DNA from: Daucus carota subsp. sativus
Taxonomy: Eukaryota; Streptophyta; Magnoliopsida; Apiales; Apiaceae
Length of the DNA: 64,000 nt
Assembly: GCF_001625215.2 (NCBI RefSeq)
Contig: NC_030383.2
Location: 13,838,779 to 13,902,778, forward strand
Direction: 5' to 3'
The stretch's first letter is position 1. Every line of letters begins with the position of its first letter. The notes under the pieces were generated by a model. The model had not been told where the DNA came from. It did no database searches and was given only the letters and a program-made list of their open reading frames with translations. Of the stretch, positions 14,292-21,936 are shown one piece after another. The position numbers and the translations under genes are program-made.

Positions 14292-14932
14292 TTTTTTGAA
14301 AGGCAACTTGCATAGATATAAGAAAACCACCCCTGGCAGGGGAGTACAAAAGAAACAGTGGCAGCCTACAAGAGATGCCTATAATATCTCCAGCTTATAT
14401 CTAGGGAAACATCAGAAAAAGCCTATACTAAGAGGCATAATCTACCAACCATACATCTACCAAAAGCCAACCTACATGCATGGATCGAGCAAAAGACAAA
14501 CCCTAGGATTTTGACCTACATCAACACCCCTTCTTCCTCCACCTCCACATCATCTTCAAAGATAAAGTCCTGGATCACAGCCTCTTGGTGATCCGGAGCG
14601 TTAGGGCCATCTGAAAAGCTGCACCAGCCAGAAAAACTGCAGCTAACCCCACCTCCATCGGACCCTGAGGTGCTGCCAAAGCCACTTCGAGCAGTTCCAG
14701 CTCTTCTTCAACCATCTCAGCTTCGATAAGGTCCGGGTCATGAGGACCCAAGCCGATATCTAGGTCCATAAGTTCCGCAGCACGACCTAGAGGCTCCATG
14801 AAGAAGAACAGACGAGTGAAGAGCTCAGCACCCAGAAGAGCGAGATACGTCGCCACCCTGTTCCTACGAGGGTAGACGTAGCGGATGGAGCAGTTCCAAG
14901 AGGCATTGTTTTTCAGCAACAAGATTTGTTGA
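14292..14932 (-). mobile_element. 5'-truncated L1-type LINE 3' end with RNase H remnant
   Basis: The minus strand encodes SIRYVYPRRNRVATYLALLG, like the end of the RNase H domain of plant L1 LINEs. It then runs into a 3' UTR resembling LINE tails (CCAGGGGTGGTTTTCTTATA) and a terminal poly(A), seen as T's at 14288-14297. A candidate duplication ACTTGTTTT lies at 14283-14291 and 14933-14941. It inserted into the MULE at 13113-15443, so it is younger than that element. Confidence 0.6.
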
Positions 14933-15458
14933 ACTTGTTTTACTCCGCCAAATCAATCCATCCCACTCTGATAATTTATAATATATATTTATAATACTTG
15001 CAAGACCCAATATATAATATTTATATATTACATATATTTATAATATATATGATAAGTTAATAGAATTTATAATATATATATTTTGTTTTAATAAAATATA
15101 AAAACACAATATATATATTTATAATATATATGGTAAGTTATTAGATTTTTTATAATATTTATTTTGTATTAATAAATTTCATTCGATATACGAAAATTGT
15201 CAAATAGCCTTACTTAATCAGATGGGTAAAATTGGAAAAATATTTTATTCAGATATTATGAAAATTTATTTATCAAATAATATTATTCACTCAGAATTCA
15301 GATTTCAGATTTATTCAGATCATTCATATATATTAATCTTTCAGATATAAATCATTCAGATTTGCCAAATGACCCCTTAGCCATGACATGAATAATTTCG
15401 TGAGAATATAAAATACTTTAGGGACATAGAGTGCAATTAAGTCAATATTAAACAAGTA

Positions 15459-15739
15459 CTCCCTCCGTCCCTCCCATTTCTTATCAAATGGGTTGGGCAC
15501 GGAGGTTAAGAAATATGTATAAAGTAGTGGAAAAGAGAAAGAAAAGTGGGTGTAGTGGTGGGACCCATTAATTTTTAATGTATAAAAAAGAGATAGTGGA
15601 GTAAAAGTAGTGTGAAAAGGAAAGAAAAATGGAAAAGTGGTGGGACCCATTGACCATATTTGGTAAGTTTTGAAATATAAAGAATTGGATGGGACGCCCC
15701 AAAAAGGAAAGGGTAAAGAAATGGTTGGGACGGAGGGAG
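15459..15739. mobile_element. Stowaway MITE
   Basis: Terminal inverted repeats CTCCCTCCGTCCC...GGGACGGAGGGAG flanked by TA duplications (15457-15458 and 15740-15741), the Tc1/mariner Stowaway signature. 281 bp, non-coding. Confidence 0.9.
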
Positions 15740-15908
15740 TAATAGCTATAAGAAAATCTAAGAATAGTTAATCATTGAATCTTGTAACCAACTACAATGT
15801 TTGAGTATAATTATGTGAATCTTGTAACAAGTATAATTATGTCATATATGTTTCATGCCACTATTATGTCATATTTGTTTTAGTATAATTATGTCATATT
15901 TGTTACAG

Positions 15909-16756
15909 GAATCATTTTTCCTATGAATGGGAAAGCTTACTGGAAAAAGCATGGTCATGAGGTCCAGCCTCCTCTCATTCAAAAGCTACCAGGAAGGCCT
16001 AAAATGAAGCGGAGACGTGATGGTAACGACGACAAAGATAAATGTAGTAAAGATGGGGCCAAACTGTTGAGGAGGGTGGATCAGACTAGTGTTAGGTGTA
16101 GCCTATGCAAGCAGAATGGGCATAATAAGAGAACATGCAAAGATGCACATTCTTCAACTGACGACCTTATTGGTGCTACTGGTGTCCAAACACCAACAGT
16201 TGACACTGTAGCTGTTCCTGAGGATGCTGACGGACACCATGACTGCATCTTGGAAATGGATTTGCATGAGGCACCAATACTTACTCAAGGAAGTCAAAGC
16301 ACACAAGGAGAAGGTACTCTTCAGTGGCCTGAAGTTGTTGGCACACCACCACAAACAGTGTGGCTAGCTTGGCCTACACTTGAGGTAAAGCGTCCCTCTG
16401 AGGTTGGTGCAACACATGTTAATGTGGTAATCAAAGGCAAGCACACTCTCAAAGGTGGTAAGGGGAACAATAACAAGCGACTGCCTCCTACAAACTACAA
16501 TGGACCCAGTTTACACGGTTGTAGTTTGAGTGAACCTGTCCAGCAGTTCAAGACAAATGTGGGTGGAACTGAGGTTGTATCGGCATCATTTACAAAGAAA
16601 GGCAAGTACATGGTAACACATGGTGCTCTATCACAGGCTCTGGCAGCAGCTAAAAGGAAGCTTGGTGAGGCCAATAGTGATGCAGCAGTCCAGTCAGATG
16701 AAAGCATGCATAAAGATGCTCATGGAGATGAGGCTGGTGGGGAGGATGCCACGTAG
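15909..16756 (+). pseudogene. Inverted duplicate of the MuDR-type transposase last exon (left arm)
   Basis: An 848-bp exon copy preceded by acceptor TTGTTACAG. It encodes the C-terminal tail of a MULE transposase: GRPKMKRRRDGNDDKDK, a CCHC zinc knuckle CSLCKQNGHNKRTC, and a low-complexity region to the stop at 16754-16756. It is an isolated partial copy with no catalytic or N-terminal part. The frame is intact and slightly better preserved than the right arm, which carries a MITE. It is more likely to act as hairpin RNA than as a protein gene. Confidence 0.85.
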
Positions 16757-16864
16757 AGGTGCTACTTAAATGTGGAAGCATTGTAGTTGCATACTAGCAA
16801 CTGTGAACCAGCTACGTGGCATCCTCCCCACCTTGTACAATGCTTCCACATTTAAGTAGCACCT

Positions 16865-19800
16865 CTACGTGGCATCCTCCCCACTAGCCTCATCTCCATG
16901 AGCATCTTTATGCATGCTTTCATCTGACTGGACTGCTGCATCACTATTGGCCTCACCAAGCTTCCTTTTAGCTGCTGCCAGAGCCTGTGATAGAGCACCA
17001 TGTGTTACCATGTACTTGCCTTTCTTTGTAAATGATGCCGATACAACCTCAGTTCCACCCACATTTGTCTTGAACTGCTGGACAGGTTCACTCAAACTAC
17101 AACCGTGTAAACTGGGTCCATTGTAGTTTGTAGGAGGCAGTCGCTTGTTATTGTTCCCCTTACCACCTTTGAGAGTGTGCTTGCCTTTGATTACCACATT
17201 AACATGTGTTGCACCAACTTCAGAGGGACGCTTTACCTCAAGTGTAGGCCAAGCTAGCCACACTGTTTGTGGTGGTGTGCCAACAACTTCAGGCCACTGA
17301 AGAGTACCTTCTCCTTGTGTGCTTTGACTTCCTTGAGTAAGTATTGGTGCCTCATGCAAATCCATTTCCAAGATGCAGTCATGGTGTCCGTCAGCATCCT
17401 CAGGAACAGCTACAGTGTCAACTGTTGGTGTTTGGACACCAGTAGCACCAATAAGGTCGTCAGTTGAAGAATGTGCATCTTTGCATGTTCTCTTATTATG
17501 CCCACTCTGCTTGCATAGGCTACACCTAACACTAGTCTGATCCACCCTCCTCAACAGTTTGGCCCCATCTTTACTACATTTATCTTTGTCGTCGTTACCA
17601 TCACGTCTCCGCTTCATTTTAGGCCTTCCTGGTAGCTTTTGAATGAGAGGAGGCTGGACCTAGGGGTGGCAGTTTCGGGTAACGGGTCGTGTTCGTGTCA
17701 GCAATCGGGTCAATTTCGAGTCGATTTCGGGTTAAGCTAAAATCACTTAAAATTGAATAAAATTAAAAATTGAAGTTATTAGAAACGAAATTAGAATTTC
17801 GGGTCATGTCGGGTCCATTTCGTGTCAAAACGGGTGATTTTCGTGTCACTTTCGGGTTTTGTCTCAGTAAATCGGGTTACGAGTTTGGGTCGGGTTCGGG
17901 TCAGGTTCGGGTCGTGTCTGATATTGCCAGCCCTACCTGGACCTCATGACCATGCTTTTTCCAGTAAGCTTTCCCATTCATAGGAAAAATGATTCCTGTA
18001 ACAAATATGACATAATTATACTAAAACAAATATGACATAATAGTGGCATGAAACATATATGATATAATTATACTTGTTACAAGATTCACATAATTATACT
18101 CAAACAAATATGACATAATTGACCACATACCTGTGTAGCATTGTGCATATGATTTAATTGAATATGCAGCATCAACAAAATCATAAGGATCTAGACCAAG
18201 CCGGTTGATGGCAGATATGGCATGGTGGCATGGAATCTCATTTAGCTCCCATCTACGACATCCACAAGTCTAGTTGTTGAGGTCAACAGCAAATCGATTA
18301 CCACTAACAGTATTAACTTGAAACTCATTATATCCTGCATATGCAACATAAACATTACCACTCCATCTCTTGTATTTGTCAATCATCAATCCACATTTTG
18401 GAGTCACTCTCCTATCCTCCCAACTGGCAGCCTTCTCTCTTTTTTTCTGTAATCTATTCATGAGATATTCCCTTATCATCTCAAGCATTACAAGTATAGA
18501 TTCAGACCTTGCAACCACAATGCTTCTGTTGAATGATTCACACATGTTATTTAATAGAATATCACATTTGTTCTCACATTTGAAAGCTGACCTAGACCAG
18601 TGGTGTGTAGGAACTTCTGCCAACCAATCAAAAGCAGCAGGCAGCTCACTCTTAACTTGTTCCATGTACTCATTGAATTTTTGCACATTAGGAGCTCTAG
18701 CAGCACACCACATCTTATCTTTCAAGGACCTTCCTGGAAACTTTTGCTTGAAGTTGTTGTGCATGTGTCTAACACAAAACCTGTGTTCAGCTGCTGGCAA
18801 GAGCTCTGCAACAACATTTAGGAGTCCTTTCTGTCTATCACTTATAATGGTCCATGCCCTGCCATCCCCAGCATCAATGTCTTGTTTAAGGAGCTTCACA
18901 AACCACTCCCAAGAGTCTCTGTTTTCAGCTTCAACAACAGCATAAGCAAGAGGGTACATACAGTTGTTTGGGTCTACTCCAACTGCTGTGAGAATCTGCC
19001 CTTTGTAGTGATTTTTTATGTGAGTCCCATCAAGACCAATTACTCTTCTGCAAGCTAACTTGAATCCATGTTTCAGTCCTCCAAAGCATAAGTACATCCT
19101 TTTGAAAACTCCAGGATGGCCTACAAACATAATTGGATTAAGAAAATAATTGAATATAATGACTGTTCCATGTACAGTGAGACATTGAAACCTACCTGAC
19201 TCAAATTGAAGCTCAATAGTAGAATTTGGATTCCTCTACAGCAACTCCATCCTGTAATCCCATAGCTTTGCATACTGGTCAGCATCTATGCCCTTTATGT
19301 TCTTCATACACTTCCTCCTAGCTCTTCTCAGCACATTAGGATTGAAATCCACTTGAATGTCCATTAGAACCCTCTCATGGAAAGCAGTGATGGGCCAATT
19401 TGGATTAATCCTGAACTCAGATTCATATTTTTCAGCTAGGAAGCCAGAATGAATTAAAGGAAGATCCCTTTGTTGTCTAACACAAGTGTGTGCTGCATAA
19501 AATTTAGATCTAGGGTTACATAAACAATGTACCCATAAAGACATGTACACAGCAAAAAGACAATAATGCACCAAAAAGTTGCTAGTTCAATAAAAACATA
19601 AATAAAGAAATAAATGAATAATTAATTGTGGAGAATATAACAGCTTATGTTCACCTGGACCCACTTGCTTCATTTGAAAAGTTTTATCAAAATTTAAGCT
19701 TGCATACATATACCAAGGGCATGGATGCTTGCACACAGCTCTGACTCTCTTCTTGTCAGATTTAATGAAATGGATTTGCCTGCCCTGCTTGTAGCTGTGC

Positions 19801-20772
19801 TTGATCATGGAGTCTCTGCATTCTTGCTGGTCTTTGAACAACATGCCAACCTCCCAAGCAGGATCATCTGAGTCTTCATAAACTGGCCAAGTTATCTTCT
19901 TCATTCCCACAATACACTCATCTGCCAGAGTCTCCATGAAATGTTCTAAAGAATCCACATCTGATTCCTTAGACAACTCCTCATCAGAATCTTGTCCAAC
20001 ACTGTCATCCCCATCTTCTGACAATCCCAGTGTCTGCTTTATCCTACCTATCCATTCAGCTTCTTCATCCACATTTTCTGCAAATAATCTGTCATCATCC
20101 TCCCCCATGGAGTAGTCACTGTCCTCCCATTCATAATCATCAATTTCATCAATTAAATAGCCTACATCATGACTGTCATTTGAAGCATGTTCATCTGGAC
20201 AAACATTTGAATAGATGTCATTAGATGTCTGCCCTGTTCCTTCCTCGAGGAAGAAATGCTTAACATACAAATCTATCCTATAGTTGTTTTCCTTCGCATA
20301 TTCTAGCATCTTTGTAAGATCACACTCTTTTTTAAGTTCAACCATACCAACATCCATTACTACTCCTGGAACTCTATAATAAATAGTTGTGTGCCCAACG
20401 TAGCCTAAGCCCTCTATTTTACAATGAATTTCTTCCAGGGAGATGGAATCTAACCCCCAAAAATCATACACAGTTAGTTGGCCACCTATATACTCGGTAT
20501 GAGGTATCCAGTTTAGCAATCCACCATGATACAACCTCACACTTAATATGTCAACACCACTATCTACGGACACAAAGAAATGACCATATGTTAACTATAT
20601 GAAGACAAACAATAAACTCAAATTAACAGCAGATGCATAAGACCACACAAAACACACCAAATGTAACCTAGATTATGCAAATAAAGACAACACAGGTAGC
20701 TGGTTACATACCATATAGTGGTGAATGGGGGTCATTGTAATCACGTACAACCATTGTTGGTCGGATGATCAT
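16865..20772 (-). pseudogene. MuDR-type (Mutator-like) transposase gene, decayed
   Basis: Five exons on the minus strand: 20712-20772, 19655-20563, 19196-19492, 18131-19120 and 16865-17995. In order: an N-terminal PB1-like part, acidic region, MuDR DNA-binding domain (WEVGMLFKDQQECRDSMIKH), catalytic region (VIGLDGTHIKNHYKGQ with the first Asp; TIISDRQKG with the second), SWIM zinc finger CGCRRWELNEIPCHH and CCHC knuckle. It is broken by two in-frame TAG stops (19236-19238 and 18270-18272) and by a 275-bp MITE in the last exon. Both stops sit where CAG fits the sequence around them. The gene cannot make a full transposase as it stands. Confidence 0.85.
17662..17936. mobile_element. hAT-type MITE inside the transposase last exon
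   Basis: Ends AGGGGTGGCA...TGCCAGCCCTA with the 8-bp duplication CTGGACCT at 17654-17661 and 17937-17944. The body is a run of TCGGGT-type repeats. The matching site in the left hairpin arm is empty and shows one CTGGACCT (as AGGTCCAG), which proves insertion after the inverted duplication. Confidence 0.85.
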
Positions 20773-20989
20773 TGCGCGCCACTTCTCCAAGCTAATCAAA
20801 CGAACTCCACTGCACAATCGAGTTTGTAAACTCTGGTACCTATTAGCTCACTCTCCAAAGCTATTGTCTAATAATCTTGCTCTCTTACATTTTAATTGGA
20901 AAGATATTAGGGTTAATGTGTACACAGCACATTGTTTCCAAGCAATTACCTCTCTATCCTTTTTGAATGTCAGACATTGAAGCTGGAAA

Positions 20990-21115
20990 AGGCGCGAGAG
21001 GGTTGCAGCATACAAATCTCGTACTTGAGGGGCTGAACCGTACAAAATGGTACTTGAGGGGTTCATGTGCATATTGGTGTCAACTTGGAGGGTTAAAGCG
21101 TATTTAAGCCTTAAT
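20990..21115. repeat. Probable right terminal region (TIR) of the decayed MuDR-type element
   Basis: Upstream of the transposase start is a block with repeats of GTACTTGAGGGG and ending GCGTATTTAAGCCTTA. This is the style of a MULE end (TAAGGCTTAAATACGC on the minus strand). No matching left TIR was found beside the hairpin, so the element is missing one end or is rearranged. Confidence 0.45.
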
Positions 21116-21936
21116 AATTTACTGGGAATCTGGGATGGTGTTGGAAACTTGAAATAACTTTTTATGGTACTGGAATAACCTTTTTTGATACAATCGTCTT
21201 AATATGAGTTTAGAACCCATATTTTGGTCTTATTTTCTCCTTGCCCTTGACATATAGAAGTAGACCAGTGAAAATTAACAACGGGCCACTGCCCATTATT
21301 GTCGGTAAAGACCGGAGTACACATGATGGGGTGGGTGTGTGATCTTGACTTAACTTTCCTTTGACTTGTTATTCCTCAATCCTACTCACCGTCATCGGAG
21401 TAGCTTCAACTCACCATTATATATACACTCATATATAATATCCCTCATCCATATATTTAATATCCCTGCTATTCTGCTCCTTGCAACACATTACTGCTAT
21501 ACTGTACTTGCTTTTCTAAGACGGGCTTCTAATCGCTTGCTTAATTTCAGGCCTCATTTTCACCCATCTGCACTTGCTGTTTCTTGTTCCGCCTTCTTGG
21601 TAATCACCTCACCTCTCTTTTCTTATTACTTTTTTACGCTTGATTTCCCTTCTTTTCACTACTTTTTCTAGATCTTCCTTACTATTCTTATATATTTATG
21701 CACTACTGGATTGATACATACTTTTAAATTTCTAGTTTAGGGGTTTGTATTTCACGAGTATTATATTTCTTAGATGTATTTATTGGTCTTTAAGTGTACT
21801 TTGTGGGGGCTTGGTTTAATTTATTTGAGTTGGTTGAATTTGACAAATTTGTTAAGAATTCATATCTTGTTATTGATTAGCAATAGATATCTTGTTAAAT
21901 GATCTTACAGAAAAGGCGCTTTAAGTTCTATAATAT
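21116..21936. promoter_or_regulatory. Promoter and 5' UTR region of the 23137 gene
   Basis: A likely 5' UTR exon lies near 21460-21600, ending CCTTCTTG before GTAATCAC. It could splice to the acceptor TTCTTGCAG at 23091-23099 just upstream of the coding start, leaving a leader intron of about 1.5 kb. This is inferred from splice signals only. Confidence 0.4.

Follow-up and report, generated by a model that had tools for sequence, protein, structure and literature searches.

A young palindrome in a carrot MULE: probable origin by repair and a possible role as a local source of hairpin RNA

The window, that is, the whole 64,000-nucleotide stretch of carrot DNA analysed here, carries on its minus strand a transposase gene whose last exon lies next to an inverted copy of itself. 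The parent element consists of the following features.

16865..20772, minus strand: parent MULE transposase gene, with five exons predicted by visual inspection of splice motifs
20772-20712, 20594-19655, 19492-19196, 19120-18131 and 17995-16865, minus strand: the predicted exons
20967..21110, minus strand: 5' TIR of the parent element, outer end GGCTTAAA
21111..21119, no strand: right 9-bp target duplication TTAATAATT, directly after the 5' TIR

Pfam matches to MULE (PF10551, 2.1e-20), DBD_Tnp_Mut (PF03108, 6.4e-11) and SWIM (PF04434, 1.9e-06), each above the cut-off, indicate by its transposase, its MuDR DNA-binding domain and its SWIM finger that the parent element is a MULE; its last exon, which bears a CCHC motif, gave no Pfam match. 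Two nonsense codons are private to this copy (19236-19238 and 18270-18272); at these sites C6a, C9 and C4, the three sisters in which the exons concerned are present, read CAG and TGG. Because of these two codons and of a MITE in the last exon, the gene is unlikely to yield a full transposase. Of the two long TIRs, only the 5' one is found in the window copy. The earlier note on this DNA had reported the left-side TIR as missing, and we indeed found none to the left of the window copy, whereas in relatives a second TIR follows about 1.94 kb past the position at which the window copy breaks off. In C6a the layout is a 5' TIR, the gene, and 1.94 kb more up to the 3' TIR; this 3' part, which is absent from the window copy together with its TIR and two ORFs, contains a sense RNase-H-like ORF (PF13456, RVT_3, 7e-9) and an antisense GRF-finger ORF (PF06839, 5.6e-7), placed between gene and 3' TIR as follows.

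L009:9382 to L010:17, plus strand: RNase-H-like ORF of C6a
L010:428-886, minus strand: GRF ORF of C6a

By eye, similar ORF pieces are visible in C9, and the RNase-H-like one in C4; the window copy has neither ORF. Our search of the open-licence literature returned nothing usable on GRF fingers in MULEs. Without its 3' TIR, the window element is probably immobile.

The core exon of the gene has 17 matches in the genome. We compared 14 of them (the window, C6a, C9, C4 and ten more), leaving out two neighbouring matches at C6:5.26 Mb and one at C5:32.59 Mb, and added C6b, which is devoid of the core exon. The genome search for elements sharing the last exon, proposed in the earlier note, did return such elements: the exon is present twice in the window and in at least four other loci among the matches listed (C6a 98%, C9 92%, C6b 92%, C4 78%), and C8a also carries it, at 76%. 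No inverted copy of any exon was seen in the 14 loci outside the window. Both TIRs are present in C6a, C6b and C8a, and TIR-sized inverted pairs occur in C8a and four others of the ten additional loci. Target duplications were read in five related copies: they are perfect over 9 bp in C6b and C8a, match at 8/9 positions in C6a and C4, and are broken at one end in C9. Judged from their reading frames and exon content, the four closest copies all appear defective. C6a is interrupted by about 12 kb close to the beginning of exon 2 and by a shorter insertion further upstream, and no frame of its exons 2 and 5 is free of stops; the same holds for at least one exon in each of C9 and C4; C6b is without exon 3 and most of exon 4. 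A search of the genome with the window TIR gave 24 matches, including four inverted pairs, 1.4-1.8 kb apart and 95-98% identical to the window TIR over 93 bases. They are located as follows.

C9:40057329-40058743: inverted TIR pair
C7:1244628-1246411: inverted TIR pair
C4:7114645-7116051: inverted TIR pair
C7:24235963-24237369: inverted TIR pair

From their size and similarity, these pairs are probably short non-autonomous elements that moved recently.

The palindrome at the 3' end of the gene is built of the following parts.

15798..16785, plus strand: left arm, comprising the end of the last intron, the last transposase exon and the start of the 3' UTR, in the orientation opposite to the parent gene
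16786..16810, plus strand: 25 nt of native 3' element sequence, found in the left copy alone, 24/25 identical to the C6a copy
16812..16832, minus strand: templated 21-nt copy of the stop-codon region inside the spacer, in right-arm orientation
16836..17661, minus strand: main block of the right arm, last transposase exon with the CCHC motif CSLCKQSGHNKRTC read from the sequence
17662..17936, no strand: MITE, in the right arm only, 275 bp, with the 8-bp target duplication CTGGACCT on both sides
17937..18106, minus strand: remainder of the right arm, comprising the last exon's 5' end (from 17995) and the terminal part of the last intron

The 988-bp left arm and the inverted right arm, which is split into two blocks, differ at 4 positions (99.6% identity). 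The main blocks, 15960-16785 and 16836-17661, have 3 differences over 826 nt, and the outer blocks, 15798-15967 and 17937-18106, have 1 over 170 nt; the differing positions, left versus right, are 15841/18063, 16116/17505, 16402/17219 and 16736/16885. This agrees with the two arms of about 1 kb and 99% identity described earlier, with the opposite orientation of the last transposase exon, which is what the right arm consists of, and with the continuity of that arm with the parent gene. Two details had to be amended. The spacer had been put at about 46 bp, but arms extended to the maximum leave 50 bp, of which 16786-16810 is native 3' element sequence; its order is 25 native bases, 1 nt, the 21-nt templated patch and 3 nt of filler, then the right arm. 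In addition, the right arm is split by the 275-bp MITE at 17662-17936, previously unmentioned. Neither the left arm nor any of the four aligned sister copies contains this insert. Its 8-bp target duplication is perfect and occurs twice, which together with the many short copies in the genome identifies it as a MITE, presumably of the hAT type given the target size and terminal bases. The stretch 17661-17900 has at least 36 further genome matches, 35 at 94-99% identity and 1 at 76%, a lower bound since 40 of 532 candidates were scored.

We also surveyed inverted repeats with at least 150 aligned bases in 22 sequences (254,414 bases), namely the window and 21 stretches chosen for their related transposases rather than at random; two of the sequences are organelle-sized contig ends, one of which offered no usable comparison. 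The window palindrome alone has arms of more than 400 bp at 90% identity or more. The inverted duplication is real and stands well clear of the noise. Assembly artefacts, from fold-back or chimeric reads, are known to take the form of inverted repeats with short spacers. Such an origin is very improbable here, and we rejected it on the grounds of the arm-specific MITE with its own target duplication, the 4 arm differences, the asymmetry of 25 bases and the patchwork spacer. The palindrome is genuine, well resolved and young. With C6a as outgroup, 3 of the changes arose in the right arm and 1 in the left, and all 4 are G-to-A on the sense strand. If substitutions accumulate at 1.3e-8 or 7e-9 per site per year, the 4 changes within 988 bp would place the duplication at roughly 0.16-0.29 million years, provided that the arms have not been homogenised. 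We also looked for possible scars of methylation. Among changes private to the window copy, C-to-T or G-to-A account for 11/25 with C9 as outgroup (5 CHG, 6 CHH, 0 CG) and 12/24 with C4; for changes private to C6a, the same two outgroups give 13/36 and 10/29. As a side observation, the last intron (17996-18130; inverted copy 15798-15907) contains 25-27-bp tandem units, partly common to C6a, of which C9, C6b and C4 showed none. It is within these units that the inverted copy terminates.

At its left edge, the palindrome is bordered by two short features.

15768..15776, no strand: left 9-bp target-site remnant TTAATCATT, 8/9 identical to 21111-21119 (TTAATAATT)
15777..15797, no strand: filler of short element-derived patches, a 13-nt patch TGAATCTTGTAAC also found in the last intron and a 10-11-nt patch AACTACAATG/CAACTACAATG

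The remnant directly borders the filler. Its resemblance to the right target duplication could be due to chance, a match with at most one mismatch being found in 36 of 2130 windows of 30 bp and in 37 of 1559 windows of 41 bp. All 21 nt of the filler are covered by element matches of at least 9 nt, a coverage equalled by 9 of 2216 control 21-mers; with longer words, 71/2216 controls do as well at 10 nt and 35/2216 at 11 nt, so that the coverage test is strong with 9-nt words only. No empty site was found in the genome. The right flank matched itself alone, and the left flank is repeated in the genome via a Stowaway MITE and two other stretches. The former, which we take to be of the Stowaway type, stands beside the palindrome at 15457-15741 (ends CTCCCTCCGTCCC) and has 36 further matches at 91-95% identity. 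Further out, a 335-bp stretch (14600-14934) has close copies at C3:12010501 (98%) and C4:31368688 (96%).

Because templated patches are present at both junctions and a near-perfect target duplication borders the lost end, we favour an aborted gap repair with template switching, an origin that, taken alone, we regard as likely. Since the left copy continues for 25 native bases beyond the right arm, its template still had a normal 3' end. According to this scenario, the MULE would first have inserted whole between two 9-bp target duplications, and a break, perhaps made by the transposase, would have arisen at its 3' end. The gap would have been filled from the right (5') side with an intact copy as template; synthesis may have halted near the stop codon, slipped back and recopied 21 nt. 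A strand switch some 25 nt past the right-arm end would have caused the last exon to be copied backwards, over about 1 kb and into the last intron, and two more short patches would have been picked up before the product was joined to the left flank where the element had originally inserted. The sequence marks are observed; the order of the steps, the enzymes and the role of the transposase are what we infer from them. The suggestion in the earlier note that one rearrangement both made the hairpin and removed the element end appears likely in view of the templated patches at the two junctions and the target-site remnant. Alternatively, two separate events could be invoked, with ectopic insertion placing an exon fragment next to the parent in tail-to-tail orientation, and the 25 extra native bases owned by the left copy would fit such a history. 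However, the arms (4/988 differences) are closer to each other than to the next copy (about 98%), both edges contain templated patches and the left edge coincides with an apparent old target duplication, all of which makes this alternative improbable. A known parallel to template-switching repair is provided by the MuDR deletion derivatives that result from interrupted gap repair, in which element sequence is lost, short templated filler is left and both TIRs are usually kept. The carrot locus has the sequence loss and the templated filler in common with them, but differs in that it lost a TIR and gained an inverted arm.

We then considered whether the palindrome could be transcribed as a hairpin. 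Of 8 polyadenylation hexamers, none occurs on the gene strand from the stop codon (16865) down to 15580, a region including the whole left arm, and therefore the parent transcript could take in the entire left arm. In C6a, used as a control, the first of the 8 hexamers appears 308 nt past the stop and AATAAA at 926. Since C6a also goes without hexamers for 308 nt, the test is weak and does not locate the natural gene end. From the sequence, read-through into the hairpin by a transcript starting in the 5' TIR is plausible; the parent transcript could also end early. The predicted fold of 18106-15798 has -2036 kcal/mol and 1064 pairs over 2309 nt. With the last intron spliced, coordinates give a stem of about 885 bp (59 + 826) with the MITE as a bulge. 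Somewhat less likely, the palindrome could be an inert relic, a repair scar behind a silent promoter with no effective transcription. The single TIR, the two nonsense codons, the MITE in the last exon and the broken state of the four closest copies would suit such a relic, but nonsense codons are no bar to transcription, and the 5' TIR and the splice-site dinucleotides at the predicted boundaries are still present.

If hairpin RNA were made, its targets would be few. Across 14 related loci, the exact arm 21-mers shared, out of 1080, number 720 in C6a, 325 in C6b, 238 in C9 and 4 in C8a, and none in the ten other loci. Allowing up to 2 mismatches, among 108 sampled 21-mers 99 match in C6a, 57 in C9, 56 in C6b, 7 in C8a, 5 in C4 and 2 in C8b, and none in the remaining eight loci. 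The hairpin RNA, if transcribed, might thus silence a few related copies, and any silencing would be narrow and aimed at a coding exon.

Mu killer (Muk) is the model case of a rearranged transposon silencing its own family, and the earlier note had likened the carrot locus to it. According to one report, each half of Muk starts at TIRA and reaches 1.298 kb into mudrA, PCR could not span the centre of the locus, and silencing plants contain short antisense transcripts, while read-through sense transcripts went with silencing failure (PMC3440606). Another describes a 2.4-kb hairpin yielding 26-nt siRNAs (PMC2563033). Both loci are natural inverted duplications of part of a MULE transposase gene, with arms similar in size to 1.298 kb, and a hairpin transcript is proposed for both, in our case from geometry and the predicted fold. 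In contrast, the part duplicated in Muk is the 5' end, TIRA being found at both ends, and its centre could not be amplified in the study cited, whereas the carrot arms comprise the end of the last intron and the last exon, with one TIR outside them and no TIR end duplicated at both sides, and their centre is fully read. Moreover, silencing, demonstrated for Muk, is a possibility for the carrot locus. The parallel therefore stands for the inverted duplication of a transposase gene, but is weaker than had been claimed, because of the 3' exon, the sole TIR outside the arms and the few targets. Comparing the two, we take the likeness to be structural only and do not file the locus as a member.

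A working silencer of the Mu killer kind, whose hairpin RNA would be made, diced and able to silence the family heritably in trans, seems unlikely to us. The arms are long and near-perfect, the 5' TIR is kept, the geometry allows read-through and three relatives share many 21-mers; four TIR pairs also suggest recent movement, while the four closest transposase copies do not look intact. On the other hand, the arms are without TIR and promoter sequence, C8a shares 4 of 1080 21-mers and the ten other loci none, and the decay of the copies is explicable without a silencer. Furthermore, according to a maize report, the Muk hairpin gives rise to 21-22-nt RNAs and to transcriptional silencing of mudrA, that of mudrB being indirect and spreading from mudrA (PMC8224964).

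Our best explanation as a whole is a repair-born palindrome whose hairpin RNA acts as a weak local siRNA source, to which we give a probability of about 0.5. The RNA step is less certain than the repair origin, and the C6a hexamer control lowered our confidence in the whole from 0.6 to this value; such odds are not exclusive, as the working silencer and the inert relic share the same repair origin. A transcript from the 5' TIR would probably continue into the inverted copy of the exon and form a double-stranded RNA of about 0.9 kb. The present role of the locus would most likely be that of a weak local source of siRNAs, mainly against its own transcript and those of three close relatives, and these would presumably act post-transcriptionally rather than at the promoters of the relatives. 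One could go further and imagine that the aborted repair of a transposase-made break, in one step, deletes the 3' end with its TIR and adds an inverted last exon, thereby creating a self-driven hairpin gene aimed at its own family; in that case, MULE transposition would repeatedly give rise to Mu-killer-like loci as a by-product, this one being directed against a 3' exon and not a promoter. We regard this broader proposal as distinctly unlikely.

The readable centre and junctions of the carrot locus nevertheless suggest how Mu-killer-like structures can form, and the locus offers a clean test of whether a 3'-exon hairpin without TIR sequence can silence a family; if no small RNAs arise from it, it is an ordinary relic. 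Besides Mu killer, our search of the open-licence literature found no MULE inverted-duplication silencer, and it brought up no paper combining carrot, small-RNA sequencing and 24-nt species. Endogenous inverted-repeat siRNA loci and young MIR loci possess a long foldback able to feed Dicer-like enzymes. The carrot locus shares the long foldback, but its arms are a transposase exon, and any small RNAs from them are hypothetical. According to a 2024 Arabidopsis study, a hunt for hairpins from rearranged LTR elements yielded one nested case, whose siRNA output was untested there (PMC11624286). As for other inverted repeats in our own set, an older one lies outside the C4 element (L015:868-1487 and 2230-2828), with 71.5% identity over 632 columns and its halves 742 bp apart.
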